Shown here one piece after another: positions 13,180 through 52,577 of a stretch of 64,000 bases of DNA. Position 1 is the first letter of the stretch. The number at the start of each line of letters is the position of its first letter. The DNA comes from Pseudomonadota bacterium (lineage in GTDB: Bacteria; Pseudomonadota; Gammaproteobacteria; Burkholderiales; Burkholderiaceae_C): NCBI GenBank assembly GCA_963204815.1, contig CAUJHQ010000061.1:1-64000 (forward strand). The letters run 5' to 3'. Under the pieces are notes generated by a model that saw nothing but the letters and a program-made list of their open reading frames with translations, was not told the origin of the DNA and did no database searches. The translations under genes and the position numbers were made by a program.

Positions 13180-13196
13180 GATCGAGTCTCTTTCGT

Positions 13197-13967: not shown

Positions 13968-14044
13968 GTCGAAGTTCTCCTGTGCAGGGTCGGGGAGGGT
14001 TCCGGGAAGCGGCCGGCCCACGCGGGCCGGTCGATGCTGTGCCA

Positions 14045-28185: not shown

Positions 28186-29990
28186 CGCGATCCTCCGGTG
28201 CCTTCGCGCCCCATGTAGGCGCGCTCCACCTCGGGGTGGCGGAACACCTCGTCGGGCGTGCCGGCGGCGAGCACGCGGCCGCGGTCGAGCACGGTGACCT
28301 GCTGGCTGATGCGGGCGATGAGCTCGAGGTGGTGCTCGACGATCAGCACCGTGGTGCCGAGCGCGGCGATCGACTGGATGAGCGCGCCCAGGCGGTCCAG
28401 TTCGTCCATCGACAGGCCGGCGGCGGGTTCGTCCAGCAGCAGCAGCGCCGGCCGGCCGGCGAGCGCGCGCGCGATCTCCACCAGCCGCTGCTGGCCGTGC
28501 GGCAGGTCGCCCGCCAGTTCGCGCGCCCGCTCGGCCAGGCCGACGAAGCGCAGCAGCGCCATCGCCTCGGCGGTGCTCTCGTCGTGGTCGCGGCGCGCGC
28601 GCGGCAGCGCCAGCGCCACCTCGGCGGCGTTGGCGCGCTCGCGCACGAAGCCGCCCAGACGCACGTTGTCCAGCACGCTCATCTCGGCCAGCAGTTTGGG
28701 CGTCTGGAAGGTGCGGCCGACGCCCAGCCGCGCCACCTGGTGCGGCGCCAGCGCCGCGAGGTCGGTGTCGCCCAGCCGCACCTGGCCGGCGTCGGCGCGG
28801 ATGAAGCCGCTGATGACGTTCAGCGTCGTTGTCTTGCCCGACCCGTTCGGCCCCACCAGCGCATGCGTGCGGCCGGCGGCGGCGGTGAGCGCGCAGCCCT
28901 GCAGCGCCTTCACGCCGCCGAAGTGCTTCTCCAGCCCCTGCAGCACCAGCGGCTGGGCGGCGGCCTCGCGCGTGTGCACGGCGGGCAGGTCGGCGCCGGC
29001 CGTCGGCAGCGGCGGCGGGCGCTGCCAGCGCCGCCACACGGGCAGGCCCATCAGCCCGTGCGGCGCGAACACCATCAGCGCCAGCAGCACCACGCCGTAG
29101 ATCGCGAGCCGCCAGCTCTGCAGCGGGCCCAGCAACTCGGGCAGCAGGAAGAACACCAGCGTGCCGACCACCGGCCCCCACAGCTTGCCGAGGCCGCCGA
29201 CGACGATGCACAGCAGGAAGAAGATCGAGAAGTCGGCGCTGAAGTCCTCGGGCGTGATGACGGTCTTCTGCACCGCGAAGAAGGCGCCGCCGAGGCCGGC
29301 GATGGCCGCGCTGACGGCGAACGCGAACAGCTTGATGCGCCACAGCGACACGCCCGAGGCGGTTGCCGCCAGCGGGTTGTCGCGCGCCGCCACCATGCCG
29401 CGGCCGAAGCGCGAGTGCACCAGGTTGCGCACCAGCCAGAACGCGAGCACGACGCAGACGGCCACCGCCACGTACACCTCCCGCGGCGTCATCGGCCGGC
29501 CGAAGAAGCCCGGTGCCGGGATGCCGACGATGCCGGAGAACCCGCGCGTGAGGCCGCGCCATTCCACCAGCAGGTCCGTCACCACCTGCGCGAACGTGAG
29601 CGTGACGAGCGCGAAGTACCAGGTCGACAGGCGCAGCGCCGGCAGCGCCATCACGAGGCCGGCGCCGGTGGCGACCAGCATGCCGGCGGGCGCGGCGAGC
29701 CAGAAGCTCCACTTGGCGTCGACCATCAGCAGTGCTGTCGTGTAGGCGCCCAGGCCGACCAGCGCGCCGTGGCCGATCGACACCTGGCCGGCATAGCCGG
29801 TGAGGAAGTTCAGGCCGATGGCCACGAGCATCATCACCAGCGCCTGGGTGGCGAGGAAAAGCACGAAGTCGCCGCGGAAGGCGAGCGGCACCGCCAGCAA
29901 CGCGGCGGCCGCGAGCGCCAGCACGGCGCGCGGCAGGCGCCGCGGCGGGGCGGCCGGCGCGGCCAGCGTCTGCGAGGTCGGCGCGTTCAT
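28182..29990 (-). CDS. livM: Fused ABC permease-ATPase (LivM-LivG)
   Basis: A 602-residue fusion. Residues 1 to about 320 are a LivM permease with many hydrophobic helices and the motif LNFLTGYAGQVSIGHGALVGLGAY. Residues about 345-602 are a LivG ATPase with GPNGSGKTTT, LPHGQQRLVEIAR (degenerate signature), LLLLDEPAAGL and EHHLELI. In the second Liv system of this window the two are separate genes. A linker of about 25 residues rich in Pro/Ala joins the domains. Start ATG at 29990, just after livH. Confidence 0.92.
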   Translation of the reverse strand: MNAPTSQTLAAPAAPPRRLPRAVLALAAAALLAVPLAFRGDFVLFLATQALVMMLVAIGLNFLTGYAGQVSIGHGALVGLGAYTTALLMVDAKWSFWLAAPAGMLVATGAGLVMALPALRLSTWYFALVTLTFAQVVTDLLVEWRGLTRGFSGIVGIPAPGFFGRPMTPREVYVAVAVCVVLAFWLVRNLVHSRFGRGMVAARDNPLAATASGVSLWRIKLFAFAVSAAIAGLGGAFFAVQKTVITPEDFSADFSIFFLLCIVVGGLGKLWGPVVGTLVFFLLPELLGPLQSWRLAIYGVVLLALMVFAPHGLMGLPVWRRWQRPPPLPTAGADLPAVHTREAAAQPLVLQGLEKHFGGVKALQGCALTAAAGRTHALVGPNGSGKTTTLNVISGFIRADAGQVRLGDTDLAALAPHQVARLGVGRTFQTPKLLAEMSVLDNVRLGGFVRERANAAEVALALPRARRDHDESTAEAMALLRFVGLAERARELAGDLPHGQQRLVEIARALAGRPALLLLDEPAAGLSMDELDRLGALIQSIAALGTTVLIVEHHLELIARISQQVTVLDRGRVLAAGTPDEVFRHPEVERAYMGREGTGGSR

Positions 29991-29998
29991 GGGACGGC

Positions 29999-30877
29999 TC
30001 AGACGCTGCGCGCTTCGAGCGAGCTCACCAACCCGCCCGGCCGCGCCAGCAGCACCGCCAGCACCAGCAGCAGGATCACCGCGTTGTGATAGCCGGGCGA
30101 CAGCCAGAGTGCGCTCGCGGCTTCCGCGATGCCGATCATGTAGCCGGCGGCGAGCGCACCGCGGTTGCTGCCCAGGCCGCCGATCGCCGCCGCCGCGAAG
30201 CCCTTCAGCAGCAGCAGGCCGCCGAGCGTGGTCGACGCCGCGAGCACCGGCGCCGCGAGGTAGCCGGTGAGCGCGGCGAACGCGCCGCCGAAGGCGAACG
30301 ACCAGCGGCCGATGGAACGCGGGTCGATGCCGCGCAGCAGCGCGGCGTCGCGGTCCTCGGCGACCGCCATCGCCGCCTTGCCCCACAGGCTGCGGTAGAG
30401 GCGGTCGACGCCGAACACCAGGGCCAGCGTCAGCAGGATCAGCGCGACCTGGTAGCTGGAGACGCTGACGCCGTCGATCGGCAGCATGTCGGTGGACAGC
30501 GGGGGCGGCGCCGGCACGACGATGGGGTCGGGGCCCCAGACCTTGCCGACGAGGTTGGCGATGATCATCGCCACCGCCAGCGTCGTGATGATCCAGGCCG
30601 CGCCGCCGGCACTGCGCCGGAGCACCGGCGCGACGGCGATGCGCTCCTCCAGCAGCGCCAGCAGCGACACCGCCGCCATCGCCGCCGCGAGCGCGGCCCA
30701 CCACGGCCACTTCCACTGCGACAGCAGCAGCGCGCTGCCCATCGCGCCCAGCATCACCAGGTCGCCCTGCGCGAAGTTGAAGACCTTGGTCGGCCGGTAC
30801 AGGATGTTGAAGCCCACCGCGACCAGGCCGTACAGGCTGCCGGCCGTGAGGCCGCCGACGACGAGGTCCAGCAGCAT
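29999..30877 (-). CDS. livH: Branched-chain-type ABC transporter permease LivH
   Basis: A 292-residue polytopic membrane protein opening MLLDLVVGGLTAGSLYGLVAVGFNILYRPTKVFNFAQGDLVMLGA, the LivH signature with FNFAQG. GGLGSNRGALAAGYMIGIAEA is the cytoplasmic EAA-like loop. It works with the fused LivMG and LivF encoded downstream and the binding protein upstream (10 bp gap). Confidence 0.93.
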   Translation of the reverse strand: MLLDLVVGGLTAGSLYGLVAVGFNILYRPTKVFNFAQGDLVMLGAMGSALLLSQWKWPWWAALAAAMAAVSLLALLEERIAVAPVLRRSAGGAAWIITTLAVAMIIANLVGKVWGPDPIVVPAPPPLSTDMLPIDGVSVSSYQVALILLTLALVFGVDRLYRSLWGKAAMAVAEDRDAALLRGIDPRSIGRWSFAFGGAFAALTGYLAAPVLAASTTLGGLLLLKGFAAAAIGGLGSNRGALAAGYMIGIAEAASALWLSPGYHNAVILLLVLAVLLARPGGLVSSLEARSV

Positions 30878-30887
30878 GGCGCGGTCG

Positions 30888-32093
30888 TCAGGCGCGTTCG
30901 CGGAACACGCCCATCGAGCGTGGGTCTCGGCCGGAGGACAAGGTGGCCATCACCATCTGGTCGCCCGTGAGGGCGCAGTGGTTGTCGGGCGTGAAGGCGA
31001 TGCGGCCGATCATGCCGTCGTAGCCCTTCACGGCGTCGAACGCGGCCTTGACGCGTTCGGTGTCGAACTTCTTCTCCGCGTCGACCACCTTCTTCAGCAG
31101 GTGCAGGAAGTCGTAGAACGGGCTGATCGCGGCGTTGATCTCCCAGGTCTTGGCCTCGGGGAAGGTGACCACCTTCTTCGCATGTGCGACCTGGCGCGCG
31201 CCCACCGGCTCGGTGGCGCTGTAGGTCATGGTCTTCAGCAGCGTGGCCGAGGCGAGCTTCAGCACCTCGGGCGCGGCGTTGTCGAGCACGGTGTTGGAGA
31301 ACATCGAATTGCCGCCCAGCAGCGCCGGGTAGTACTTCATCGCCTGCAATCCGGCGGCGGTGAGCAGCACGCCCTGCGCCGGCGAGTTCCACAGCACCAG
31401 CGCGTCGGCGCCGGCGTTGCGGATCTTCGTCAGGTAGACCTTCAGGTCGGTCGCCGTGACGGGGTAGGTCTCGACCGCCACCGGCTCGAGGCCGAACTTC
31501 TTCAGCGCCCGCGTGGTGGCCGCGCCGCCGGCTTCGCCGAGCGCGGTGTTCTCCTGCAGGATGCCGACCTTCTTCAGCTTCAGGTTCTCGACGATGTGGC
31601 GCGCGATCGCCTCGCCCTGGTGGCCGGTGTTGTAGGTGAACTGGTAGTGATAGGGGTACTTGCGGCCGTCGGCGAGCTCTTCGGTCCAGCCGCCGCCGGC
31701 GTGGATGACCTTCGCCGGCGTGGTGGTGGCCACCGCCGACAGCGTGTGCGAACTGCCCACCGGCCCCAGGATGGCCTGCGAGCCGCCGTCGAGCAGCTTG
31801 CGCATCACGGCCGGCTCTTTCGCGGGCGAGCTCTCGTCGTCGGCTTCGATGATCTCGAGCTTGCGGCCGAGGATGCCGCCGGCAGCGTTGATCTCGTCGG
31901 CGGCGATCTTCACGCCCACGTACAGCGGCGCGAACGACGACGCGACCAGGCCGGTCATCGCGCGCGCCGAGCCGATCTTGAAGGTGTCGCCGCTCTGGCC
32001 GAAGGCGAGGCCGGAGCTGCCGAGCAGCAGGCTGCCGCCGGCGGCCAGGACCTCGCGGCGCGAGGGGCTGAGGGAACGGGGTGCTCGGCTCAT
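30888..32093 (-). CDS. ABC transporter substrate-binding protein (Peripla_BP_6), Tat-type signal
   Basis: A 401-residue periplasmic binding protein. The N-terminus MSRAPRSLSPSRREVLAAGGSLLLG has a twin-arginine motif (SRREVL) and a hydrophobic stretch ending near GLAFGQ. The mature domain FKIGSARAMTGLVASSFAPLYVGVKIAADEIN is LivK-like. AGGAGA precedes the ATG at 32093. It leads the leftward transport operon and is not closely like the other three binding proteins here, so ligand specificity probably differs. Confidence 0.92.
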   Translation of the reverse strand: MSRAPRSLSPSRREVLAAGGSLLLGSSGLAFGQSGDTFKIGSARAMTGLVASSFAPLYVGVKIAADEINAAGGILGRKLEIIEADDESSPAKEPAVMRKLLDGGSQAILGPVGSSHTLSAVATTTPAKVIHAGGGWTEELADGRKYPYHYQFTYNTGHQGEAIARHIVENLKLKKVGILQENTALGEAGGAATTRALKKFGLEPVAVETYPVTATDLKVYLTKIRNAGADALVLWNSPAQGVLLTAAGLQAMKYYPALLGGNSMFSNTVLDNAAPEVLKLASATLLKTMTYSATEPVGARQVAHAKKVVTFPEAKTWEINAAISPFYDFLHLLKKVVDAEKKFDTERVKAAFDAVKGYDGMIGRIAFTPDNHCALTGDQMVMATLSSGRDPRSMGVFRERA

Positions 32094-32343: not shown

Positions 32344-33975
32344 ATGGGCACGACCGCTTTCGACCCCGCAACGCACGCCGCGCGCATGCGCGCCGAGGGC
32401 TGGTGGAACGACCGCACCACCGACGCGCTGATCGCCGAGGCCGCGCAGCGCTGGCCGCAGCGCGACGCCGTCGTCGCCTACCGCGCCGACCGGCCGGGGC
32501 CGGCGCCGGTGAAGCGGCTGACCTTCGGTGAACTCGAAGCCTTGGTCGGCCGCGGTGCCGCGGCGCTGCGCGGCCTGGGTGTCGGCGCGGGCGACGTGGT
32601 CTCGGTGCAGTTGCCGAACTGGTGGGAGTTCGTCGTCGTCGCGCTCGCGGCGCGGCGGCTCGGCGCCATCGTCAACCCGCTGATGCCGATCTTCCGCGAG
32701 CACGAGCTGAGCTACATGCTCGCCTTCTGCGAAGCCAAGGTGCTGGTCGTGCCCAAGCAGTTCCGTGGCTTCGACCACGAGCAGATGGCCACCGCGCTGA
32801 AGGCGCGCTGCCCGACGCTGCAGCACGTGCTGGTGGTCGGCGGCAGCGGCGACAACGAGTTCGAGCGCGCGCTCTTCGGCGGCAGCGCGAGCGTGGCGCC
32901 GTCGGCGGCGCAGCGCGCCGACACGCTGGGCGTGCTGATGTTCACCAGCGGCACCACCGGCGAGCCCAAGGGCGTCATGCACAGCGACAACACGCTGGTG
33001 GCCTGCGTGCGCGGCCTGGCCGGCCGCTTCGGCCTGACCGACACCGATGTGCTGCTCGCCTGCTCGCCGCTGGGCCACATGACCGGCTACACGGCGGTGA
33101 TGCTGCAGGGCCTGTGCCTGGGCTGCACCGTCGTGCTGCAGGACGTGTGGGAAGGCGCGCGCGGCGTCGCCATCATGGCCGCCGAGAGTGTCACGCACAC
33201 CGCGGCGGCCACGCCCTTCCTGGTCGACATCTGCGAGGCGGTGGCCGCGGGCGGCCCGAAGCCGAAGCTGCGTACCTTCCTGTGCGGCGGCGCGCCGATC
33301 CCGCCGGTGGTGGTGCAGCGCGCGTCGAAGGAACTTGGGCTCGACGTCTCCAGCCTCTGGGGCATGACCGAATCGCTCGGCAGCACGCTGACCGAGCCGG
33401 CGCGCGCGCACGAGAAGTCGGCCTCCACCGACGGCCGGCCGCTGGACGGCACGCAGGTCAAGGTCGTCGACATCGACGGCAAGCCGCTGCCCACGGGCCA
33501 GACCGGCCGCCTGCTGGTGCGCGGCGCGCAGATGTTCATGGGCTACTACAAGAAGCCCGAGATCCCCACCTTCGACGCCGAGGGCTGGTTCGACACCGGC
33601 GACCTCGCCTACCTGGACGCCGAGGGCTACATCCGCATCAACGGCCGCACGAAGGACGTGCTGATCCGCGGCGGCGAGAACGTGCCGGTGGCCGAGATCG
33701 AGAACCTGCTGCTCAAGCACCCGGCGATCAGCGGCACGGCCGTCGTCGGCATTCCGGACGCGCGCCTGGGCGAACGCGGCTGCGCCTTCGTCACGCTGCG
33801 CCCCGGGCAGGCCTTCGACCTCGCCGAACTGCAGCGCTGGATGGCCGAGTGCAAGGTCGCCAAGCAGTACTGGCCCGAGCGCGTCGAGGTGGTCACGGAA
33901 CTGCCGCGCACGCCGAGCGGCAAGATCCAGAAGTTCGTGCTGCGCGAGAAGGCCAAGGCCTTCGCCCAGCCATGA
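32344..33975 (+). CDS. Cyclohexanecarboxyl-CoA ligase-like acyl-CoA synthetase (AliA type), copy 2
   Basis: A 543-residue ANL enzyme clearly paralogous to the 21338 copy: FDPATHAARMRAEGWWNDR, VQLPNWWEFVVVALAARRLGAIVNPLMPIFREHELSYML, FTSGTTGEPKGV, LWGMTESLGS, FDTGDLAYLDAEGYIRINGRTKDVLIRGGENVPVAEIE and TPSGKIQKFVLRE. It is likely to activate a related but distinct alicyclic or aromatic acid. The stop overlaps the start of an SDR (ATGA). Confidence 0.85.
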   Translation: MGTTAFDPATHAARMRAEGWWNDRTTDALIAEAAQRWPQRDAVVAYRADRPGPAPVKRLTFGELEALVGRGAAALRGLGVGAGDVVSVQLPNWWEFVVVALAARRLGAIVNPLMPIFREHELSYMLAFCEAKVLVVPKQFRGFDHEQMATALKARCPTLQHVLVVGGSGDNEFERALFGGSASVAPSAAQRADTLGVLMFTSGTTGEPKGVMHSDNTLVACVRGLAGRFGLTDTDVLLACSPLGHMTGYTAVMLQGLCLGCTVVLQDVWEGARGVAIMAAESVTHTAAATPFLVDICEAVAAGGPKPKLRTFLCGGAPIPPVVVQRASKELGLDVSSLWGMTESLGSTLTEPARAHEKSASTDGRPLDGTQVKVVDIDGKPLPTGQTGRLLVRGAQMFMGYYKKPEIPTFDAEGWFDTGDLAYLDAEGYIRINGRTKDVLIRGGENVPVAEIENLLLKHPAISGTAVVGIPDARLGERGCAFVTLRPGQAFDLAELQRWMAECKVAKQYWPERVEVVTELPRTPSGKIQKFVLREKAKAFAQP

Positions 33976-34742
33976 CGGTGCGGGCCCACCGCCTGGACGG
34001 CGTCGTCTGCGTCGTCACCGGCGCCGCGCGCGGCATCGGCCTGGCCATCGCCGAGCGGCTGGCCACCGAAGGCGGCCGCGTCGCCGCCTGGGACGTCAGC
34101 GAACGCCGGCTCGAGCCCGCCGTGGCCGAGCTGCGCGCGCGCGGGCTCGACGTGCACGGCTTCGCCTGCGACGTCGGTGCGCGCGCCGCCGTCACCGAGG
34201 CGATGGCCAAGGTCGAGCAGCATTTCGGCGCGCCGGTCGGCGTGCTCGTCAACAACGCCGTCTGGGCGCGCTTCGGCGCGCTGGCCGAGATCGACGACGA
34301 GGTCGCCGACCGCACGCTGGCCGTCGGCCTGAAGGCGCTGATGTGGACCACGCAGGCGGCGGCGCCGCAGATGCGCAGGCGTGGCGGCGGCAGCATCGTC
34401 AACCTGAGCTCGGTGTCGGCGCTGCACCCGCAGGCCTCGTCGATCGTCTACGCCGCGATGAAGGGCGGCGTGCTCGGCCTCACGAAGGCGGCGGCGGTGG
34501 AACTCAGCCCCGACCGCATCCGCGTCAACGCCGTCATCCCCGGCATGGTGGGCACGCCGGCGTCGAAGGCGCAGTTCGACGCTGCCACGCTCGCCGAACG
34601 CGAAGCGGCCATGCCGCTCGGCCGCTTCGGCGACCCCGCCGACATCGCCGGCGCAGTGGCCTTCCTGGCCTGCGACGATGGCGCCTACGTGCAGGGCGCC
34701 GAACTCATCGTCGACGGCGGCTGGACCGTCGGCACGCGCTGA
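33972..34742 (+). CDS. SDR-family oxidoreductase
   Basis: 256 residues with GAARGIGLAIAERL, VLVNNAVWARFG, IVNLSSVSALHPQASSIVYAAMKGGV (Ser, Tyr, Lys) and QGAELIVDGGWTVGTR. A typical 3-hydroxyacyl-CoA or cyclic alcohol dehydrogenase. It is coupled by a 4-bp overlap to AliA copy 2, so it probably oxidises a hydroxylated derivative of the same acid. The 483 bp after it contain no gene. Confidence 0.88.
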   Translation: MTVRAHRLDGVVCVVTGAARGIGLAIAERLATEGGRVAAWDVSERRLEPAVAELRARGLDVHGFACDVGARAAVTEAMAKVEQHFGAPVGVLVNNAVWARFGALAEIDDEVADRTLAVGLKALMWTTQAAAPQMRRRGGGSIVNLSSVSALHPQASSIVYAAMKGGVLGLTKAAAVELSPDRIRVNAVIPGMVGTPASKAQFDAATLAEREAAMPLGRFGDPADIAGAVAFLACDDGAYVQGAELIVDGGWTVGTR

Positions 34743-35225: not shown

Positions 35226-36014
35226 ATGAACCGCATGCAGGACAAGCGCTGTGTCGTCACCGGCGCCGGCAGCGGCATCGGCCGCGCCAGCGCGCAACGC
35301 TTCGCCGCCGAGGGCGGGCGGGTGCTGGCCGTGGGCCGCAGCGCCGCCAACATCGACGAGACCGTGGCGCTGATCCGTGCCGCCGGCGGCAGCGCAGAGG
35401 CCATGGTGGCCGATGCAACCGCCGAGGCCGACGTGAAGGCGGTGGTCGATCGTTGCATCGCCGCCTTCGGCGGCATCGACGTCTTCCTGGCCAACGCCGG
35501 CTCGCCGGGCACGAACGCGTCGCTGTTCGAGCAGACCGTCGACGAGTGGAACGAGGTCTGGCGCGACAACGCGCTCAGCAGCATGCTGGCCGTGAAACAC
35601 GCGGCGCCGCCGATGGTGGCGCAGAAGGGTGGCTCGATCATCCTCGTGTCTTCGGCGGCCTCGCTGCGCGCCAACGCGGGCGCCATCTCGTACAGCGCCA
35701 GCAAGGCGGCGGTGAACAGCCTGGCGCAGACGGCGGCGAACGCGCTCGCCGGCACTGGGGTGCGTGTCAACGCCATCCTGCCCGGGCTGGTGGAGACCAA
35801 GATGACGCGCAAGGTCTTCGAATACGCGCGCGAACGCGGCAAGGAAGGCCGCATCGGCCACATGGTGCCGCTGCAGCGCGCCGGCCGGCCGGAGGAGATC
35901 GCCGCGATGGCCACCTTCCTGGCCAGCGACGACGGCTCGTTCGTCACTGGCCAGTTGTACGCGGTGGACGGCGGCGTCAGCAGCACGCACCCGCACGGGA
36001 AGATCCCGGTGTGA
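35226..36014 (+). CDS. SDR-family oxidoreductase
   Basis: 262 residues: GAGSGIGRASAQRFAAEGGRVLAVGRS, VFLANAGSPG, ILVSSAASLRANAGAISYSASKAAV and VTGQLYAVDGGVSSTHPHGKIPV. Catalytic Ser, Tyr and Lys are intact. AAAGGA lies upstream of the ATG at 35226; the upstream part of the track ORF runs through the repeat and is not supported. It is translationally coupled (GTGA) to an EamA transporter, an unusual pairing. No operator of the common set was found here. Confidence 0.86.
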   Translation: MNRMQDKRCVVTGAGSGIGRASAQRFAAEGGRVLAVGRSAANIDETVALIRAAGGSAEAMVADATAEADVKAVVDRCIAAFGGIDVFLANAGSPGTNASLFEQTVDEWNEVWRDNALSSMLAVKHAAPPMVAQKGGSIILVSSAASLRANAGAISYSASKAAVNSLAQTAANALAGTGVRVNAILPGLVETKMTRKVFEYARERGKEGRIGHMVPLQRAGRPEEIAAMATFLASDDGSFVTGQLYAVDGGVSSTHPHGKIPV

Positions 36015-37029: not shown

Positions 37030-38292
37030 ATGGACTTCCATCTGCCCGCCGAGATCACCGCCAAGCTGGCCGAGATCGACGCCTTCATCGAAGCCGAGAT
37101 CAAGCCGCTGGAGCGCGAGAACATGCAGTTCTTCGACCACCGGCGCGAGAACGCCCGCACCGACTGGGAGAACGACGGCCGCCCGCGCGCCGAGTGGCGC
37201 GCGCTGATCAGCGAGATGGAACGCCGCGCCGACAAGGCCGGCCACCTGCGCCTGGGCCTGCCCAGGAGCTGCGGTGGCCAGGCGGCGTCGAACCTGATGA
37301 TCGCCGCCATCCGCGAGCACCTGGCCGCCAAGGGCCTGGGCCTGCACAACGACCTGCAGGACGAGAGCTCCATCGTCGGCAACTTCCCGATCATCCCCGT
37401 GCTCGACGCCTACGGCACGCCGGACCAGAAGAAGTACATCGAGGGCATGATCAGCGGCAAGATGCACCTGAGCTTCGCGCTCACCGAGCCCGGCCACGGC
37501 AGCGACGCGACCTGGCTCGAAACCACCGGCGTGCGCGCGACCGACGGCTCGGGCGACTGGGTCCTGAACGGCATGAAGCGCTGGAACAGCCAGGTCGCGC
37601 GCGCGCACGGCAACCTGGTCTTCGCGCGCACGTCGGGCAAGCCGGGCGACGCGAAGGGCATCACCGCGTTCATCGTGCCGACCGACGCCGCCGGCCACAA
37701 GGTGCTCTACAACCACTGGACGTTCAACATGCCGAGCGACCACGCGGAAACCGAGCTGAAGAACGTGCGCGTGCCCGACAGCGCCATCCTGCACAAGGAA
37801 GGCGAGGGCCTGATGGTGGCGCAGCGCTTCGTGCACGAGAACCGCATCCGCCAGGCGGCGGCGAGCGCCGGCGCCGCGCGCTACTGCATCACCGAGGCGG
37901 CGAAGTACGCACGCTCGCGCATCGCCTTCGGCGAGCCGCTGTCGAAGAAGCAGGCGATCCAGTTCCCGCTCGTCGAGCTCTATGCCGAATGCGAGATGGT
38001 GCGCAACTACATTTTCCGCACCGCCTGGCAGATGGACCGCCAGGACCCGCTGGAGATCAGCGACATGGTCTCGATCTGCAACTTCCGCGCGAACCGCCTG
38101 TGCTGCGACGCCGCCGACCGCGCGATGCAGACCCACGGCGGCATCGGCTACAGCCGCGCGATGCCGTTCGAGCACATCTACCGCCACCACCGCCGCTACC
38201 GCATCACCGAGGGCTCGGAAGAGGTGCAGATGCGCCGTGTCGCGCAGTACCTGTTCGGCTTCGGCGGCAAGAAGGCGAACGCGAGCGCATGA
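37030..38292 (+). CDS. Acyl-CoA dehydrogenase (ACAD10/11-like subgroup)
   Basis: A 420-residue ACAD. SFALTEPGHGSDATWLETT, WVLNGMKRWNSQVARAHGNLVFART, a long 255-280 loop LKNVRVPDSAILHKEGEGLMVAQRFVHENRIRQA and HGGIGYSRAMPFEHIYRHHRRYRITEGSEEVQ, keeping the C-terminal catalytic Glu. The SDAT and ENRIRQ features recall the ACAD domain of ACAD10/11. Its stop overlaps an APH-fold kinase (ATGA), which in those animal proteins is the same polypeptide. It probably dehydrogenates, or removes phosphate from, a gamma-phosphorylated acyl-CoA. Confidence 0.88.
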   Translation: MDFHLPAEITAKLAEIDAFIEAEIKPLERENMQFFDHRRENARTDWENDGRPRAEWRALISEMERRADKAGHLRLGLPRSCGGQAASNLMIAAIREHLAAKGLGLHNDLQDESSIVGNFPIIPVLDAYGTPDQKKYIEGMISGKMHLSFALTEPGHGSDATWLETTGVRATDGSGDWVLNGMKRWNSQVARAHGNLVFARTSGKPGDAKGITAFIVPTDAAGHKVLYNHWTFNMPSDHAETELKNVRVPDSAILHKEGEGLMVAQRFVHENRIRQAAASAGAARYCITEAAKYARSRIAFGEPLSKKQAIQFPLVELYAECEMVRNYIFRTAWQMDRQDPLEISDMVSICNFRANRLCCDAADRAMQTHGGIGYSRAMPFEHIYRHHRRYRITEGSEEVQMRRVAQYLFGFGGKKANASA

Positions 38293-39338
38293 GCATCGGC
38301 AGAGCCGGGGGCGACATCGATTTCGATGTCGCGGCGCTGGACGCCTACTTGCGCGACTCGCTCGCGCTGGGTGCCGCGCCGCTGGATGTGCGGCGCACCG
38401 AAGGCGGCATGTCCAACCCCACCTACTTCCTGGCGAAGGGCGGCTGGCAGGCCGTGCTGCGCAAGCAGCCGGGCGGCGTGGTCATGCCCTCGGCGCACGC
38501 CATCGACCGCGAGTGGCGCGTGCTCAGCGCGTTGCGCGGCACGGCGGTCCCGGTGCCGGCGCCGCTGCACTACTGTGCCGACCGGACGGTGCTGGGCACG
38601 CCGTTCTACCTGATGGAGAAGCTCGACGGCCGGGTGTTCCACGAGTTCGCCACGCCCGGGCTCGCGCGCGCCGAACGCACGGCGCTGTACGAATCGATGG
38701 TGGCCACCATGGCCGCCATCCACCGCCTGGACGTCGGCGCGCTCGGGCTGGCCGACTACGGCCGCGCCGGCAACTACTTCGCGCGCCAGCTGAAGCGCTG
38801 GTCGGAACAGTGGGCGAAGTTCCGCCGCGACGACGCCGACAACCCGGCGCTCGACCGCGTCGTCGCCTGGCTCGCCGAACGCGTGCCCGCGAGCGAACTG
38901 CAGTCGCTGTGCCACGGCGACTTCCGCATCGGCAACGTGATGTTCCACGCCACCGAGCCGCGCGTCATCGGCGTGCTCGACTGGGAACTCTCGACGCTCG
39001 GCCACCCGCTGGTCGACGTCGCCTTCAACAGCCAGGCCTGGCGCATGGCACCCGACGAGAACGGCGGCCTGCTCGGCCTGCCGCTGACCGAACTCGGCAT
39101 CCCGACCGAAGACGACTACCTCGAGCGCTACTACGCGCTCGCGGGGTCCACCGAACGCATGACCACATTCCACCAGGTGTTCGCGATGTTCCGCGGTGCC
39201 GTCGGCAGCGCCGGCGTTGCCGTGCGCGGCGAACAGGGCAACGGTTTCCTGCCGGACGCCGCACGCATCGGCCGCAAGCTGGCGCTGGCCTATGCCGGCC
39301 GCGGCCTGGCGTTGATCGAAGCGCGGGGCGACCGATGA
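38289..39338 (+). CDS. APH-fold phosphotransferase (acyl-CoA kinase-like, LvaA/ACAD11 N-domain type)
   Basis: 349 residues of aminoglycoside-phosphotransferase fold. EGGMSNPTYFL and AVLRKQPGGVVMPSAHAIDREW (ATP-binding Lys) open it. SLCHGDFRIGNVMF is the Brenner catalytic motif (HGDxxxxN) and IGVLDWELSTLGHP is the Mg-binding motif. This subfamily is known from the kinase domain of ACAD10/11 and from P. putida LvaA, which phosphorylates 4-hydroxyvaleryl-CoA. Coupling to an ACAD supports that chemistry rather than antibiotic resistance. Substrate inferred. Confidence 0.86.
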   Translation: MSIGRAGGDIDFDVAALDAYLRDSLALGAAPLDVRRTEGGMSNPTYFLAKGGWQAVLRKQPGGVVMPSAHAIDREWRVLSALRGTAVPVPAPLHYCADRTVLGTPFYLMEKLDGRVFHEFATPGLARAERTALYESMVATMAAIHRLDVGALGLADYGRAGNYFARQLKRWSEQWAKFRRDDADNPALDRVVAWLAERVPASELQSLCHGDFRIGNVMFHATEPRVIGVLDWELSTLGHPLVDVAFNSQAWRMAPDENGGLLGLPLTELGIPTEDDYLERYYALAGSTERMTTFHQVFAMFRGAVGSAGVAVRGEQGNGFLPDAARIGRKLALAYAGRGLALIEARGDR

Positions 39339-39997
39339 CGCTGGACGACGCGATCCTGCAGCGCCGCTCGGTGCGCGGCTTCCTGGCACAGGAAGTGCCC
39401 GACGCCACGGTCCGCGAGGTGCTGGAACTGGCGCAATGGGCGCCGTCGAACTGCAACGTGCAGCCCTGGGTGCCGCACGTGGTGTCGGGCGCCGCGCTGG
39501 CCACGCTTCGCGACGCGCTCGTCGCCGCGGCGCTGGCGCAGCAGCCCTTCGACCCCGACTGGCCCGCCGACGGCAAGTACCACGGCATCTATCGCGAGCG
39601 CCAGTACGACGCCGCCGCGCGCCTGTACGGCGCGATGGGCGTCGAGCGGCGCGACCTCGAAGGCCGCCACGCCGCCTACCTGCGCAACCACATGTTCTTC
39701 GACGCGCCGCACGCCGTGTTCATCTTCATGCACGCGCCGTTCGACACCCGCGAGGCGACCGACATCGGCATCTACGCGCAGACGCTGATGCTGGCGCTGA
39801 CCTCGCGCGGCATCGGCTCGTGCGCGCAGGGCGCGCTGGGGCTGTACGCCGGCACCGTGCGGCGCCACCTTGGGCTGCCGGACGACCACCGGCTGCTGTT
39901 CGGCATCTCCTTCGGCTACGAAGACACCGGCGTGCGCGCGAACGCCGCGCGCACGGTGCGCGCGCCGCTGGCCGAAGCCGTCCGGTTCCACCGCTGA
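39335..39997 (+). CDS. Nitroreductase-family flavoprotein
   Basis: 220 residues. ILQRRSVRGFLAQEVPDATVREVLELAQWAPSNCNVQPWV is the classic nitroreductase N-terminus with FMN-binding Arg and Ser-Asn, and TDIGIYAQTLMLALTSRGIGSCAQGALG is the second FMN motif. Members reduce nitro groups, quinones or enones. It overlaps the kinase stop (ATGA), so a role in reducing a conjugated acyl intermediate is more likely than xenobiotic nitroreduction. Confidence 0.9.
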   Translation: MTLDDAILQRRSVRGFLAQEVPDATVREVLELAQWAPSNCNVQPWVPHVVSGAALATLRDALVAAALAQQPFDPDWPADGKYHGIYRERQYDAAARLYGAMGVERRDLEGRHAAYLRNHMFFDAPHAVFIFMHAPFDTREATDIGIYAQTLMLALTSRGIGSCAQGALGLYAGTVRRHLGLPDDHRLLFGISFGYEDTGVRANAARTVRAPLAEAVRFHR

Positions 39998-39999
39998 CC

Positions 40000-41232
40000 A
40001 TGAGGACCGTGGCCGTGGTCGGCCCGGGCCTGATGGGCCTGGGCATCACGCAGGTGGCCGCCGCGGCCGGCCTGCAGGTGCTGCTGGTGGGGCGCGATGG
40101 CGCGGCCGCCGCTGCCGGGCGCGCGCGCCTGGCCACGCAGCTGCAGCGCCAGGTCGAACGCCGGCGGCTCGACGCCGCCGCCGCCGAAGCGCTGCTCGCG
40201 CGCGTGGTGGCCGTGGCCGACGACGCCGAGCTCGCGCGCTGCGACCTCGCCATCGAATCGGTGGCCGAAGACCGCGCGGCCAAGCTCGGCGTGCTGCGCC
40301 GGCTGCAGGCCGCGCTGCCGGCCGGTGCGCTGATCGCCACCAACACCTCGGGCCTGCCGGTGAGCGGCCTGGCCGGCGCGCTGGCGCGGCCGGAGCGTTT
40401 CCTCGGCCTGCACTTCGTCTCGCCGGTCGAGCGCATGAAGCTCGTCGAGGTGGTGCGCGGCGAACGCACCGCGCCGGCGACGCTGGCCGCGGGCCTGGCG
40501 TTCGTCGAACGGCTCGGCCAGGTGCCGATCGTGGTGCGCGACGGGCCGGGCTTCTTCACCTCGCGCGTCTTCGCCGCCTACCTCGACGAAGCGCTCGCGC
40601 TGGTGGCCGAGGGCGTGGACCCGGTGCTGATCGACGCCGCCGTCACGGCGCACGGCCGCGCCATCGGCCCGCTGGCGGTGCTGGACGACATCTCGCTGGC
40701 GCTGAACCTGCAGCAGATCCGGCAGGCGCGCGCCGACGGCCTGCCGCCCGAGCGCTGCCGCCCGCTGGCCGAGCCGGTGCTCACCGCGATGCTGCTGAAC
40801 GGCCGCGCCGGCCGGCGCCAGGGCGGCGGCTTCTACGACACCGCCGCCGACGGCACGCGCACGCCCTGGCCGGGCCTGGCCGCGCTGTTCCCGCCGGCGG
40901 CGCTGCAGCCCACATCCGGCGGGCTGTGCCTGCGCCTGCGCTGCGCCGAGGCCATGGACGCGCTGCGCTGCCTGGAACACGGCGTGATCGACAGCGCCGA
41001 CGCCGCCGACACCGGCTCGCTGCTCGGCCTGGGTTTCCCGCAGGCCACCGGCGGCCTGCTGCGCTGGGTCGAGCACTTCGGCCTGCCGCGCTTCGTCGAC
41101 ACCTGCGCCGAGTTCGCACGCGAGCACGGCGCCCGCTTCACGCCGTCGCCCTGGCTGCGCGAGCGCGCCGCGCTCGGCCGCGGCCTCGCCGACTGGCGAA
41201 CCCCCACCCCCGAAAGGACGACCACGCCATGA
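40000..41232 (+). CDS. 3-hydroxyacyl-CoA dehydrogenase, FadB/FadJ-type dehydrogenase half
   Basis: 410 residues, longer than the ~285 of single 3HCDH enzymes. VVGPGLMGLGITQVAAAAG binds NAD; IESVAEDRAAKLGVL and ATNTSGLPVSGLA follow; LHFVSPVERMKLVEVVRGERT has the catalytic His, and VVRDGPGFFTSRVF the next motif. A second 3HCDH-C-like unit (LRLRCAEAMDALRCLEHGVI, LGLGFPQATGGLLRW) follows, as in the C-terminal half of FadB/FadJ. It thus looks like FadJ without its crotonase, complementary to the protein at 10934-12376. Confidence 0.9.
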   Translation: MRTVAVVGPGLMGLGITQVAAAAGLQVLLVGRDGAAAAAGRARLATQLQRQVERRRLDAAAAEALLARVVAVADDAELARCDLAIESVAEDRAAKLGVLRRLQAALPAGALIATNTSGLPVSGLAGALARPERFLGLHFVSPVERMKLVEVVRGERTAPATLAAGLAFVERLGQVPIVVRDGPGFFTSRVFAAYLDEALALVAEGVDPVLIDAAVTAHGRAIGPLAVLDDISLALNLQQIRQARADGLPPERCRPLAEPVLTAMLLNGRAGRRQGGGFYDTAADGTRTPWPGLAALFPPAALQPTSGGLCLRLRCAEAMDALRCLEHGVIDSADAADTGSLLGLGFPQATGGLLRWVEHFGLPRFVDTCAEFAREHGARFTPSPWLRERAALGRGLADWRTPTPERTTTP

Positions 41233-42341
41233 CCGGACCCCTCAAGGGCTTTCGCATCGTCGAGCTCGCCGCCATCGGCCCGGTGCCGTTCTGTGGCGCC
41301 TGGCTCGCCGACCTGGGCGCCGACGTCGTGCGCGTCGACCGCCTGCCGGTGCCGGGCCGCGCGCCCGACCAGCCGCCGCGCTTCGACTTCTACAACCGCA
41401 ACAAGCGCTCGGTCGCGTTCGACCTCAAGCAGCCGGCCGGCGTGCAGGCGGTGCTGAAGATGGTGGCCAAGGCCGACGTGCTGCTCGAAGGCTTCCGCCC
41501 CGGCGTCACCGAGCGCCTGGGTCTGGGCCCCGACACCTGCCTGGCCGCGAACCCGCGCCTCGTCTACAGCCGCATGACCGGCTGGGGCCAGGACGGCCCG
41601 CTCGCCACCGAGGCCGGCCACGACATCAACTACCTCGCGCTCACCGGCGCGCTGGCCAGCATGGGCGCGCCCGGCCTGCCGCCGCCGCCACCCCTGAACC
41701 TGGTGGCCGACCTCGGCGGCGGCGCGATGGTGCTGGCCGTCGGCGTGCTGGCGGCGGCGATGGAGGCGCGCAGCTCGGGCCGCGGCCAGGTGGTCGACAG
41801 CGCCATGGTCGACGGCGTGGCGGTGCTGATGTCGGCCTTCCAGGCCTTCCGCCAGCAGGGCACGTGGACGGCCCACCGCGGCGAGAACATCGTCGACGGC
41901 GGCGCACCGTTCTACGGCACCTACGAGACGGCCGACGGCCGCTACGTCGCGGTCGGGGCGATCGAGCCGCAGTTCTACGCCGCGCTGCTGTCCGTGATGG
42001 AACTGGACCCGGCGGCCCTGCCGGACCAGAACGACCGCAGCGCCTGGCCGTCGATGCGCGAGCGCTTCGCCGCCGTCTTCCGCACCCGCCCGCGCGACGC
42101 CTGGGTGGCCGCCGCGGCCGGCCGCGACGCCTGCCTGTCGCCGGTGCTCACCATCGACGAGGCGCCGTCGCACCCGCAGATGGCGGCTCGGCGCAACTTC
42201 ACGCCCTTCGACGGCGTGCTGCACCCGAGCCCGGCGCCGAAGCTGTCGCGCACCCCGGGTTCGCTGCGGCGCGGCGCGCCGGCCGCCGGCGAACACCAGG
42301 CCGAGGTGCTGCGCGACTGGGGTATCGCTGAAAATACCTAA
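41229..42341 (+). CDS. CaiB/BaiF family, alpha-methylacyl-CoA racemase-like
   Basis: 370 residues. LKGFRIVELAAIGPVPFCGAWLADLGADVVRVDR is the family-III CoA-transferase N-terminus. The short length, GHDINYLALTGALASMG (catalytic His, Asp region), RGQVVDSAMVDGVAVL and GGAPFYGTYETADGRYVAVG match alpha-methylacyl-CoA racemase rather than true CoA transferases. It would interconvert (R)- and (S)-2-methylacyl-CoA so that ACADs can act, implying methyl-branched substrates. It overlaps the dehydrogenase stop by 4 bp. Confidence 0.88.
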   Translation: MTGPLKGFRIVELAAIGPVPFCGAWLADLGADVVRVDRLPVPGRAPDQPPRFDFYNRNKRSVAFDLKQPAGVQAVLKMVAKADVLLEGFRPGVTERLGLGPDTCLAANPRLVYSRMTGWGQDGPLATEAGHDINYLALTGALASMGAPGLPPPPPLNLVADLGGGAMVLAVGVLAAAMEARSSGRGQVVDSAMVDGVAVLMSAFQAFRQQGTWTAHRGENIVDGGAPFYGTYETADGRYVAVGAIEPQFYAALLSVMELDPAALPDQNDRSAWPSMRERFAAVFRTRPRDAWVAAAAGRDACLSPVLTIDEAPSHPQMAARRNFTPFDGVLHPSPAPKLSRTPGSLRRGAPAAGEHQAEVLRDWGIAENT

Positions 42342-42409: not shown

Positions 42410-43564
42410 ATGGTACTGACCGAAGATCAAAGAGCCCTGCAGGAGACCGCCCGCCGCTTTGCGCGCGAACGCCTGCTGCCCGACTACCAGAAGCGCGAGA
42501 AGGACGGCGGCCACCTCGACCGCGGCCTCGTCGCCGAGATGGGCCGCCTGGGCCTGCTGGGCGTGGACCTGCCGGAGGAATTCGGTGGCCTCGGCGTGGA
42601 CGCCGTCACCACCGGCCTCATCGCGGAAGAGCTCGCCTATGGCGACTTCAACGTCAGCGCGGTGCCGGTCGGCATCTCGCTGAACGCGGCCATCCTGATC
42701 CGCCACGCGCAGCCCGAGGTGGTGCGCGAGTGGGTGCCGAAGATGACGCGCGGCGAGGCCGTCGTCGCGATCTGCCTGACCGAACCGCGCGGCGGCTCCG
42801 ATGCGAGCAACCTCGCGCTGAAGGCGCGCAAGGACGGTGACCACTACGTCATCAACGGCGAGAAGACCTCGATCACCTTCGCCGACCGCGCCGACGCCTA
42901 CCTGATCTTCGCCCGCACCGGCCGGCCGGAGGAGGGCGCCAAGGGCGTCAGCGCGTTCTTCATCCCGTACGAGGGCACGAAGGGCATCTCGCGCACGAAG
43001 TTCGACGACGTCGGCAGCGCCGTCATCGGCCGCGGCTCGGTCTTCTTCGACGACGTGCGCGTGCCCGCCAGCCACCGCCTAGGCGACGAGGGCAAGGGCT
43101 TCACGCAGGTGATGCAGGGCTTCGACTACAGCCGCGCGCTGATCGGCCTGCAGTGCGTGGGTGCGGCGCAGGCCAGCCTGGACGAGGCCTGGGCCTATGC
43201 CAAGGAGCGCGAAGCCTTCGGCAAGCCGATCGGCCAGTTCCAGGGCGTGAGCTTCCCGCTCGCCGAGGGCGAGTCGCAGATCGAGGCGGTGCGCCAGCTC
43301 TGCTACCACGCGCTGGCGCTGCGCGACGCCGGGCTGCCGCACACGAAGGAAGCCGCCATGTGCAAGTGGATGGGTCCGCGCAACGCGTTCGACGTCATCC
43401 ACCAGTGCCTGCTGACCTTCGGCCACTACGGCTGGAGCAAGGACCTGCCGCACCAGCAGCGCATGCGCGACGTGATGGGCCTGGAGATCGGCGACGGCAC
43501 GGCGCAGATCATGAAGCTCATCATCGCGCGCGAACGCATCGGCCGCGCGGCGGTGCAGTACTGA
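42410..43564 (+). CDS. Acyl-CoA dehydrogenase with Asp base (AliB-like or LvaC-like)
   Basis: 384 residues. LGVDLPEEFGGLGVD, ICLTEPRGGSDASNLALKARKDGDHYVINGEKTSITFADRA, RVPASHRLGDEGKGFTQVMQGFDYSR and FGHYGWSKDLPHQQRMRDVMGLEIGDGTAQIMK. The C-terminal catalytic Glu (YEGT) is Asp (IGDGT). Similar sequences are annotated as cyclohexanecarboxyl-CoA dehydrogenase (AliB), which would suit the BadH/BadI pathway; the neighbouring kinase suggests an alternative, LvaC-like role. First gene of a five-gene operon. Confidence 0.88.
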   Translation: MVLTEDQRALQETARRFARERLLPDYQKREKDGGHLDRGLVAEMGRLGLLGVDLPEEFGGLGVDAVTTGLIAEELAYGDFNVSAVPVGISLNAAILIRHAQPEVVREWVPKMTRGEAVVAICLTEPRGGSDASNLALKARKDGDHYVINGEKTSITFADRADAYLIFARTGRPEEGAKGVSAFFIPYEGTKGISRTKFDDVGSAVIGRGSVFFDDVRVPASHRLGDEGKGFTQVMQGFDYSRALIGLQCVGAAQASLDEAWAYAKEREAFGKPIGQFQGVSFPLAEGESQIEAVRQLCYHALALRDAGLPHTKEAAMCKWMGPRNAFDVIHQCLLTFGHYGWSKDLPHQQRMRDVMGLEIGDGTAQIMKLIIARERIGRAAVQY

Positions 43565-43586: not shown

Positions 43587-44459
43587 ATGCCGTACCAGTC
43601 GATCTACCGCCCCGGCCTCTTCGCCGGCCAGACCCTCATCGTCACCGGCGGCGGCAGCGGCATCGGCCGCTGCACGGCGCACGAACTGGCGTCGCTGGGC
43701 GCGCACGTCGCGCTCGTCGGCCGCAAGATCGAGAAGCTCGAGGCGGTGCGCGCCGAGATCACCGAAGACGGCGGCAGCGCCAGCTGCCACGTCGCCGACA
43801 TCCGCGAAGAGGCGATGGTGGTCCAGGTCATCGAGGACGTGCTGCGCGAGCGCGGCCGCATCGACGGCCTCGTCAACAACGCCGGCGGCCAGTACCGCAC
43901 GGCGATGAAGACGATTTCCACCAAGGGCTTCGAGGCGGTGGTGCGCAGCAACCTCACCGGCGGCTTCATCTTCATGCGGGAAACGTACAACCGCTGGATG
44001 GAAGCGCACGGCGGCGCCATCGTGAACATCATTGCCGACATCTGGGGCGGCTGGCCGGACTACGCCCACTCCGGCGCCGCGCGCGGCGGCATGCTCACGC
44101 TCAGCGAGACGGCGGCCTGCGAATGGGCCACCTCGGGCGTGCGCGTCAACTGCGTCGCGCCGAGCGGCATCGCCAGCAGCGGCTTCGACACCTACACGCC
44201 GGAAGCGAAGGCGAAGATCCTCGAGTTCCCGCCGCACGTGCCGCTGCAGCGCTACGGCACCGAGGCCGAAATCTCGTCGGCCATCGTCTACCTGCTGTCG
44301 CCTGCGGCGTCCTACATCACGGGCTCGTGCGTGCGGGTGGACGGCGGCACGCCGAACTTCAGGCCCACCTACTGGAAGCTGCAGCCGGTGCGCAACAACG
44401 TGCCGTACGAGGGCTTCCACCGCGCCGTGCTGCCCGACCTGCTGACCAAGGGCCTCTGA
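43587..44459 (+). CDS. SDR of the PECR/trans-2-enoyl-CoA reductase type
   Basis: 290 residues. VTGGGSGIGRCTAHELASLGAHVALVGRK, GLVNNAGGQY, IVNIIADIWGGWPDYAHSGAARGGMLTLSETAACEWATSGVRVNCVAPSGI and SYITGSCVRVDGG. The HSGAARGG segment replaces YxxxK exactly as in peroxisomal trans-2-enoyl-CoA reductase (HSGAARAG), which uses a different Tyr/Lys spacing. It therefore probably reduces an enoyl- or ketoacyl-CoA with NADPH. It precedes the phosphatase by 5 bp. Confidence 0.86.
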   Translation: MPYQSIYRPGLFAGQTLIVTGGGSGIGRCTAHELASLGAHVALVGRKIEKLEAVRAEITEDGGSASCHVADIREEAMVVQVIEDVLRERGRIDGLVNNAGGQYRTAMKTISTKGFEAVVRSNLTGGFIFMRETYNRWMEAHGGAIVNIIADIWGGWPDYAHSGAARGGMLTLSETAACEWATSGVRVNCVAPSGIASSGFDTYTPEAKAKILEFPPHVPLQRYGTEAEISSAIVYLLSPAASYITGSCVRVDGGTPNFRPTYWKLQPVRNNVPYEGFHRAVLPDLLTKGL

Positions 44460-44464
44460 GCGCC

Positions 44465-45058
44465 ATGCGGCTGACCCTGGTGCGCCACGGCCGACCCGAC
44501 GAGGGTGACACCGCCCGCCCGCACGACCCGCCGTTGCGCGCCGACGGCCGGCGCCAGGCGCAGGCCGTGGCGGCGCTGCTGGCCGGCGAGGGTGTCACGC
44601 GCGTCGTCGCCAGCCCGCTGTTGCGCGCCCACCAGACCGCCTTGCCGCTGGCCGAACGGCTGGGCCTGCCGGTCGACACCGTCGACGGCTGGGCCGAGGC
44701 CGACCGCCACCTCGCGCGCTACCGCAGCACCGAAACCCTGCGCGCGCAGGGCGAGGCCGAGTGGGCGCGCTTCCTCGCCGACCCCGTGCGCTACCTCGGC
44801 GGCGACCCCGAGGCCTTCCGCGCCGCCGTGCTCGGCGCGCTGCAGGTGTCGATCGACGGCGAGCGCGAGGCGCACGTCGCCGTCTTCACGCACGGCATGC
44901 CGATCAACGTGGTCTTGTCCCACGTGCTCGGCCTGTCGAAGATCATCCACTTCCAGCCGGGCTACGGCTCGGTGACGCGGCTGCGCGCCCGCAATGCCGA
45001 ACGCATCGGCGTGGTCAGCGTCAACGAGAGCGGCCACCACCAGCTTCCCCTCACATGA
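44465..45058 (+). CDS. Histidine phosphatase family protein (paralogue)
   Basis: 197 residues. LTLVRHGRPDEGD, ASPLLRAHQTALPLAERLG, VFTHGMPINVVLSHVLGLS. It shares ARYRSTETLRAQG and VVSVNESG with the protein at 7730, identifying a cluster-specific subfamily. Being sandwiched between an SDR and an acyl-CoA kinase-like gene (ATGA overlap with the kinase), it could dephosphorylate a phospho-acyl intermediate, but this is speculation. Confidence 0.87.
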   Translation: MRLTLVRHGRPDEGDTARPHDPPLRADGRRQAQAVAALLAGEGVTRVVASPLLRAHQTALPLAERLGLPVDTVDGWAEADRHLARYRSTETLRAQGEAEWARFLADPVRYLGGDPEAFRAAVLGALQVSIDGEREAHVAVFTHGMPINVVLSHVLGLSKIIHFQPGYGSVTRLRARNAERIGVVSVNESGHHQLPLT

Positions 45059-46086
45059 ACCCGATCGGCGACGACACCACCCTGGCCGCCCGCGTGGCCG
45101 ACTACCTGAGCCGCCAGGTCGGCCATGCCGTCACCGTGGGCCGCATCAAGCGCTTCCCGGTCGGTTTCTCCTGGCTGACCTTCGCGGTGCCGGTGTCCGG
45201 CCTGAAGGGGCCGGGCGACGCGCAGGAACTGATCCTGCGCCTGGGCCCCGACTACGGCCTCTTCGCACCCTACAGTGCCGGCCCGCAGGTGATGGCGATG
45301 CAGTCGCTCGAAGGCAGTGCCGTGCCGCTGCCGCGCGCCTTCTGGAGCAGCGACGACCCGGCCATCCTGGGCGCGCCCTTCATGTTCTGCGAGAAGGTCT
45401 CGGGCGATGCCGTCGTGCCCTGGGTGTCGGCCAGCGAGCCGCCGCTGGACGAAGGCTACCGCCGCCGCCTGGGCACCGACTTCATCGACGCGCTGGCGGC
45501 GCTGCACCGCGTGCGCTGGCAGGACAAGCCGATCGCCGCGCTCGCCGACGGCATCACCGCCGAGAACGCCGCGCAACGCAACGTCGAGCTCTACGAACGC
45601 CTGATCGAAGGCTGGGCGATGCGGCCCTACCCGCTGGCCGAGTGGGGCATCCGTTGGCTCAAGCGCCACAACCCGGTGGCGCCGCGCGTGACCATCGTGC
45701 ACGGCGACTACCGCACCGGCAACTTCCTGGAGCAGGGCGGCCACATCACGTCCATCCTCGACTGGGAACTCGTGCACCTGGGCGATCCGCACGAGGACCT
45801 GGCCTGGGTCAGCCTGCCGATGTACATGGGCGGCAGCAAGTACCTGTGCCGGCTCTGCGAGCCCGAGTGGTTCTACGAGCGTTACGCCGAGCAGTCGGGT
45901 ATCGCCGTCTCGATGGCGTCGGTGCGCTACTACCAGGTGTTCTCGCTGCTCAAGCTGGCGGCCACCCACATGGCGGCGGCGCGCTGCTTCGAGGAAGGCC
46001 GCTTCAACGACATGCGCATGCCGGCGATGGGCAGCCAGATCGCCACCTGCCTGCGCCAGATGGACAAGCTCATCGAGGCCGCCTAG
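45055..46086 (+). CDS. APH-fold phosphotransferase (LvaA-like)
   Basis: 343 residues. PVGFSWLTFAV and LILRLGPDYGLF form the N-lobe, VTIVHGDYRTGNFL is the catalytic HGDxxxxN motif and ITSILDWELVHLGDPHEDLAWV the metal-binding motif. This is the kinase family of LvaA and the ACAD10/11 N-terminal domain. The small protein encoded next resembles the partner arrangement LvaA-LvaB. Only moderately similar to the kinase at 38289, so the two likely treat different hydroxyacyl-CoAs. Confidence 0.86.
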   Translation: MNPIGDDTTLAARVADYLSRQVGHAVTVGRIKRFPVGFSWLTFAVPVSGLKGPGDAQELILRLGPDYGLFAPYSAGPQVMAMQSLEGSAVPLPRAFWSSDDPAILGAPFMFCEKVSGDAVVPWVSASEPPLDEGYRRRLGTDFIDALAALHRVRWQDKPIAALADGITAENAAQRNVELYERLIEGWAMRPYPLAEWGIRWLKRHNPVAPRVTIVHGDYRTGNFLEQGGHITSILDWELVHLGDPHEDLAWVSLPMYMGGSKYLCRLCEPEWFYERYAEQSGIAVSMASVRYYQVFSLLKLAATHMAAARCFEEGRFNDMRMPAMGSQIATCLRQMDKLIEAA

Positions 46087-52495: not shown

Positions 52496-52577
52496 GCACG
52501 GCCCGGGGCGCCGGCATGGCGCCCTTTCATTTCCACCGCCATTGCAATTGCACAACCCCCAGCCGGAGACCACCGCC

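Follow-up and report, generated by a model that had tools for sequence, protein, structure and literature searches.

A conserved acyl-CoA dehydrogenase–kinase gene pair related to ACAD10/ACAD11 in a bacterial cluster resembling those for alicyclic-acid catabolism

Gene arrangement of the locus

The window analysed in this study is a continuous stretch of 64,000 nucleotides from a bacterial genome. The genes of primary interest begin with ACAD_A (positions 37030–38292, + strand), which codes for a 420-aa acyl-CoA dehydrogenase whose family is discrete and, as judged from the trees described below, a sister to the LvaC/ACAD10/11 group. Every Pfam ACAD domain scores above its cut-off on this protein, which carries the motif LTEPGHGSDAT at residues 151–161 and has Glu394 as its predicted base and His238 as its predicted FAD-proximal histidine. 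The end of ACAD_A and the start of APH_A (38289–39338, + strand) share the four nucleotides ATGA. APH_A codes for a 349-aa small-molecule kinase, assigned to the ACAD10/11 type by its sequence kinship, that matches PF01636 with 172 bits and carries the motif CHGDFRIGN at residues 208–216 (HGD211xxxxN216) along with D231WE. An earlier note on this DNA had pointed out the 4-bp overlap, the SDAT-type motif of the dehydrogenase and the HGDFRIGN motif of the kinase, and all of these are indeed found. Absent from that note is the gene for a nitroreductase-fold protein (39335–39997, + strand), which overlaps APH_A by another 4 bp and is the third member of a conserved core.

Further along the same strand are genes for a 3-hydroxyacyl-CoA dehydrogenase-like protein (40003–41232) and a CoA-transferase family III (CaiB-type) protein (41229–42341), the latter a conserved neighbour. 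Beyond these lies a second set, also on the + strand, that includes ACAD_B (42410–43564), which is cyclohexanecarboxyl-CoA-dehydrogenase-like (TIGR03207, 549.4 bits, short of the equivalog cut-off of 575.35), a 2,4-dienoyl-CoA-reductase-like short-chain enzyme termed SDR3 (43587–44459), a branch 1 histidine phosphatase with an RHG motif (44465–45058) and a second, divergent kinase, APH_B (45055–46086), whose gene overlaps that of the phosphatase by 4 bp. ACAD_B and APH_B had been described as a second pair that is unlinked. Both genes are real, but ‘unlinked’ is too strong, given that they run in the same direction as the first pair with only the SDR and histidine phosphatase genes between them. 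In one related locus (L033), ACAD_B and APH_B are directly adjacent.

Much of the surrounding DNA looks like an alicyclic-acid (cyclohexanecarboxylate-like) island when judged by its predicted proteins. Upstream of the core are an AliA-like CoA ligase (32344–33975, + strand; TIGR03208, 675 bits), two conserved neighbours, SDR1 (33972–34742, + strand) and SDR2 (35226–36014, + strand), and a second AliA-like ligase (21338–22966, + strand; 720 bits), with neither ligase reaching the TIGR03208 equivalog cut-off of 792.3 bits. The opposite strand carries genes for a BadI-like 2-ketocyclohexanecarboxyl-CoA hydrolase (12382–13185; TIGR03210, 415.7 bits, cut-off 467.6) and a BadH-like 2-hydroxycyclohexanecarboxyl-CoA dehydrogenase (13197–13970; TIGR03206, 329.3 bits, cut-off 431.2). 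Thus, all of the AliA-, AliB-, BadH- and BadI-like matches fall somewhat under their NCBIfam equivalog cut-offs. The same degradation cluster is carried by the paddy-soil strain Rhodobacteraceae QY30 on a plasmid (CP023455.1, 76429–107670), where homologues of BadI, BadH, a thiolase, HMG-synthase-like and CitE-like proteins, ACAD_B and ACAD_A recur, and this shared gene set supports the view that the genes constitute one functional island. The two AliA-like ligases, the AliB-like ACAD_B and the BadH- and BadI-like proteins resemble the AliA/AliB/BadH/BadI pathway of the Rhodopseudomonas palustris type. To our knowledge, the kinases, the nitroreductase, the CaiB-type protein and ACAD_A have no part in that pathway. 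A Rieske oxygenase with a LigXa-like C-terminal domain is also encoded in the window (52542–53888), near a second set of ABC transporter genes.

Conservation of the linkage between ACAD_A and kinase genes

A scan of GTDB species genomes revealed at least 574 relatives of ACAD_A, ranging from bacteria to haloarchaea, of which the best 80 were kept for analysis. The family is discrete, such that its members share at least 57% identity and the next ACADs only about 35%. Of the 73 sampled members, 34 have a kinase gene within 1.5 kb, versus one of 50 other ACADs; the rows compared are related by descent, so statistical significance is only indicative. The linkage is tightest among close relatives. 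Among 13 independent loci at 75% identity or more, 12 have the kinase gene immediately downstream of ACAD_A, with representatives in Variovorax, Bradyrhizobium, Rhodoferax, Xenophilus, Roseicyclus, Mesorhizobium and Rubrivivax, and the kinase gene is adjacent in all nine sampled loci of this identity from named genomes. Given this recurrent order, and that the whole genome of 4.58 Mb yields only 16 APH matches, the adjacency is far above what chance would produce. Among 64 relatives at 60–65% identity, 25 have a kinase gene within 1.5 kb, and none was found within that distance for the other 39, including those of Reyranella.

The order ACAD_A–kinase–nitroreductase is kept in nearly all close loci, although one (L031) has the core without the nitroreductase gene. 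Haloarchaeal and Sulfitobacter plasmids encode a small protein between the kinase and the ACAD. The kinases linked to ACAD_A relatives belong to at least two lineages in the kinase tree, one of the ACAD10/11 type and a second. Three relatives (L050, L053 and L078) are accompanied by two kinases, and the tree places one in each lineage for L050 and L078. On the QY30 plasmid, the nitroreductase gene comes straight after ACAD_A, and no APH kinase was found within the 31 kb of the cluster. The coupling of ACAD_A to a kinase is therefore not obligatory.

Kinship of the kinases

Solved structures matched by the APH_A sequence include 3dxp, at 276 bits, and mouse ACAD11, at 222 bits. Its identity to the kinase domain of mouse ACAD11 is 42% over 309 aa. 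In alignment, APH_A keeps the catalytic Asp and Asn (D220/N225), the DWE motif and the CoA-contacting residues R86 and R176. Retained in it are the Arg that neighbours the alphaC Glu (DRE) and R176 (RQxxR). The CoA-binding role of these Arg residues was assigned in the study of ACAD11 (PMC12440821). Moreover, the kinase tree groups APH_A with the kinases associated with ACAD10/11 and LvaC and away from resistance kinases, in keeping with what the earlier note had proposed. We conclude that APH_A is an ACAD10/11-type kinase by sequence kinship, and predict that it acts on hydroxyacyl-CoA.

APH_B is only 32% identical to APH_A, scores 30 bits to ACAD11, lacks the alphaC DRE in alignment and occupies a separate lineage in the kinase tree. 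ACAD_B has the catalytic Asp of ACAD10/11 yet falls outside the LvaC/ACAD10/11 clade, with G, I and Q at the positions of mouse R626, H634 and R637, and by sequence it is AliB-like rather than LvaC-like. A proposal that the cluster carries two kinase–ACAD sets for two chain positions is thus weak, since ACAD_B resembles cyclohexanecarboxyl-CoA dehydrogenase and the kinases do not share a lineage. The second set shares four kinds of genes (kinase, histidine phosphatase, ACAD and SDR) with the levulinate cluster of Pseudomonas citronellolis LA18T (PMC6692424). However, it differs from that cluster in its AliB-like ACAD_B, its divergent APH_B and its gene order. In both places, a phosphatase gene sits beside a kinase gene.

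Kinship and active-site residues of ACAD_A

By pairwise comparison with ACAD_A, a Thermus MCAD-like enzyme scores 167 bits and ACAD11 only 87–89 bits. We had taken this as a sign that ACAD_A has no special kinship with ACAD11, a view that was overturned by the trees. The first tree had 55 rows, the second and third included 23 and 43 other ACADs, respectively (those of the third taken mostly from this genome and one Mycobacterium), and the fourth was bootstrapped and had 59 rows. The ACAD_A and LvaC/ACAD11 groups each form one clade (monophyletic at 100), and together they make up one side of a strong branch with support of 100/99, 98 and 100/98 in the second, third and fourth trees, respectively, where in the third tree one ACAD_A-type row and four mycobacterial rows with the LvaC signature that were labelled as ‘other’ fall inside those clades. 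The ACAD_A branch is long (~1.1), so long-branch effects on this placement are possible, and the other ACADs sampled were limited in number. Comparison of both proteins with ACAD10/11 by phylogeny, as the earlier note suggested, thus favours the kinase but not the ACAD, which is nonetheless no unrelated ACAD but a member of the sister group. On the basis of sequence relationships, the ACAD_A family is a conserved sister lineage of the ACAD10/11 clade, and apparently an undescribed one, given that our literature search found no description of it. Certain mycobacterial FadE-like proteins (L209, L214 and L221) carry the R-H-R-D signature of ACAD10/11, yet branch outside the core LvaC clade.

Some residues are shared by the ACAD_A and LvaC/ACAD10/11 clades. 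The FAD-proximal H597 of mouse has a His counterpart in 13 of 13 ACAD_A members (H238) and 16 of 16 LvaC-type proteins but in none of 43 other ACADs, and N107 is distributed in the same manner. The Thr of the SDAT motif (T161), which had been singled out previously, is indeed common to the two clades (92% and 75%) and is missing from all 43 of the others. Other residues differ. Rashan et al. report that phosphate elimination by ACAD10/11 is abolished by non-conservative replacement of R626, H634 or R637, or of the catalytic D753 (PMC12440821). At the positions of the phosphate-contacting clamp (R626, H634 and R637; HCMR in the mouse protein) and of D753, ACAD_A has Phe, Gln, Ala and Glu, respectively, with Glu394 taking the place of the Asp base. 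The mouse residues are found in none of 25 ACAD_A members, all of which match ACAD_A except for some variation at the R637 position.

Possible functions of the gene pair

ACAD10, ACAD11 and the LvaA/LvaC proteins function in the catabolism of 4-hydroxyacyl-CoAs (PMC12440821, PMC11342911). The window pair resembles these systems in its type of kinase, in the shared His and SDAT Thr, and in that kinase and ACAD are encoded together. In contrast, its ACAD belongs to the sister clade, lacks R626, H634 and R637 and has Glu rather than Asp as its base, the ACAD precedes the kinase, a nitroreductase is the third gene and the setting is one of alicyclic acids. No small gene is present between the window genes. 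In the lva operon (LvaA–LvaB–LvaC), the kinase has a small partner, LvaB. A family that may serve as a kinase partner like LvaB is DUF6285 (PF19802), which in this genome occurs only on contig C60. An APH kinase was its direct neighbour in all 22 loci inspected (L227–L249), often with an ACAD beyond. The C60 locus (28693–31144) has the order kinase–DUF6285–ACAD, and the ACAD from this set (30128–31144) is about 89% identical to one encoded in the window at 62896–63999.

The analysis shows how the genes are ordered and conserved, to which families they belong, that ACAD_A is sister to ACAD10/11 and that it has no phosphate clamp; the substrate, the order of steps and the use of phosphate given below are inferred. 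We judge the chances to be about even that ACAD_A forms an operon pair with APH_A in the catabolism of a cyclohexanecarboxylate-like (alicyclic, and probably substituted) acid, wherein the kinase phosphorylates a hydroxyacyl-CoA and ACAD_A acts downstream. Because APH_A shares its catalytic and CoA-contacting residues with the ACAD10/11 kinase, it would use ATP to phosphorylate the hydroxyl of a pathway hydroxyacyl-CoA, as that kinase does. The target could be a ring or side-chain hydroxyl, with ACAD_A working on the product or on the next intermediate. As a flavoenzyme with a Glu base, ACAD_A would remove the alpha proton and the beta hydride. If phosphate were present on the gamma carbon, it would then leave to yield an enoyl- or dienoyl-CoA, which could pass to SDR3, the nitroreductase and the BadH/BadI-type enzymes. 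By chemical reasoning, the hydroxyl of 3-hydroxycyclohexanecarboxyl-CoA would be in the gamma position, as it is in 4-hydroxyacyl-CoA.

The missing clamp residues and the plasmid cluster that has no kinase are real objections to a phosphate-coupled model, and it is possible that the dehydrogenase is an ordinary one and that the kinase next to it acts independently. ACAD_A could be an ordinary alpha,beta-dehydrogenase that acts on an unphosphorylated alicyclic acyl-CoA and passes electrons to ETF, while APH_A serves in a side reaction with a hydroxylated co-substrate or in detoxification, such that the two have only the operon in common. The canonical Glu base of ACAD_A and its lack of the clamp fit with this proposal, as do the MCAD-like enzymes that give its best PDB scores and the many 60–65% relatives that, like the plasmid, have ACAD_A without the kinase. 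However, the adjacency recurs across phyla and with kinases of two lineages, and ACAD_A shares both its sister position and a His with a clade that acts on kinase products. We therefore take this arrangement seriously but rate it as somewhat improbable. More speculatively, and with doubtful prospects, the ACAD_A family might be a second, separately evolved group of kinase-coupled ACADs that handle phosphorylated alicyclic or branched acyl-CoAs from bacteria to haloarchaea, with Glu as the base and phosphate bound at a site distinct from that of ACAD10/11.

The earlier note viewed the pair as a split bacterial equivalent of ACAD10/11, which would imply that it turns 4-hydroxyacyl-CoA into 2-enoyl-CoA in exactly the manner of LvaA/LvaC. 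The kinase type conforms to this view, and the SDAT motif, the H597-equivalent His and the sister position of ACAD_A are in line with it. We nevertheless consider it very unlikely, since ACAD_A lacks R626, H634, R637 and D753 and is placed outside the clade with 100% support. Orthology of ACAD_A with ACAD10/11 is rejected by scores, motif and trees alike. Moreover, the same genome carries an orthologous pair on another contig (C173), where an ACAD with GRLGPGRIHHCMR and LRFADGPDEVH scores 517 bits to mouse ACAD11, has all three of R626, H634 and R637, and lies 56 bp downstream of a kinase that scores 285 bits to the ACAD11 kinase. By sequence, the C173 genes are this genome's genuine split ACAD10/11 (an LvaC/ACAD11 orthologue plus kinase), and they have the kinase-first order of the animal fusion, which is reversed in the window pair. 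Searches of 66 related genomes revealed LvaC-type ACADs in 46, and window-type ACADs at 86% identity or more were found in four genomes besides this one among 149 searched. Finally, we give almost no credence to the idea that the two window kinases are of the antibiotic-resistance type and strayed into the cluster, because they share the PF01636 family with such enzymes but score far below the cut-offs of resistance models (for APH(3'), 40 bits where 205 are needed), the linkage is conserved, APH_A is 42% identical to the ACAD11 kinase and the tree already contradicts such an origin.

Implications

Among the ACADs sampled, none outside the ACAD10/11 clade is closer to it than the ACAD_A family, whose members have no clamp and yet are often adjacent to a kinase. 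One practical consequence concerns annotation, in that the names LvaA and LvaC are tempting but unsuited to the window pair. More broadly, comparison of ACAD_A with ACAD10/11 could reveal how phosphate elimination evolved from ordinary dehydrogenase activity, and how bacteria remove awkward hydroxyls from ring acids such as those of terpenoid or naphthenic origin.
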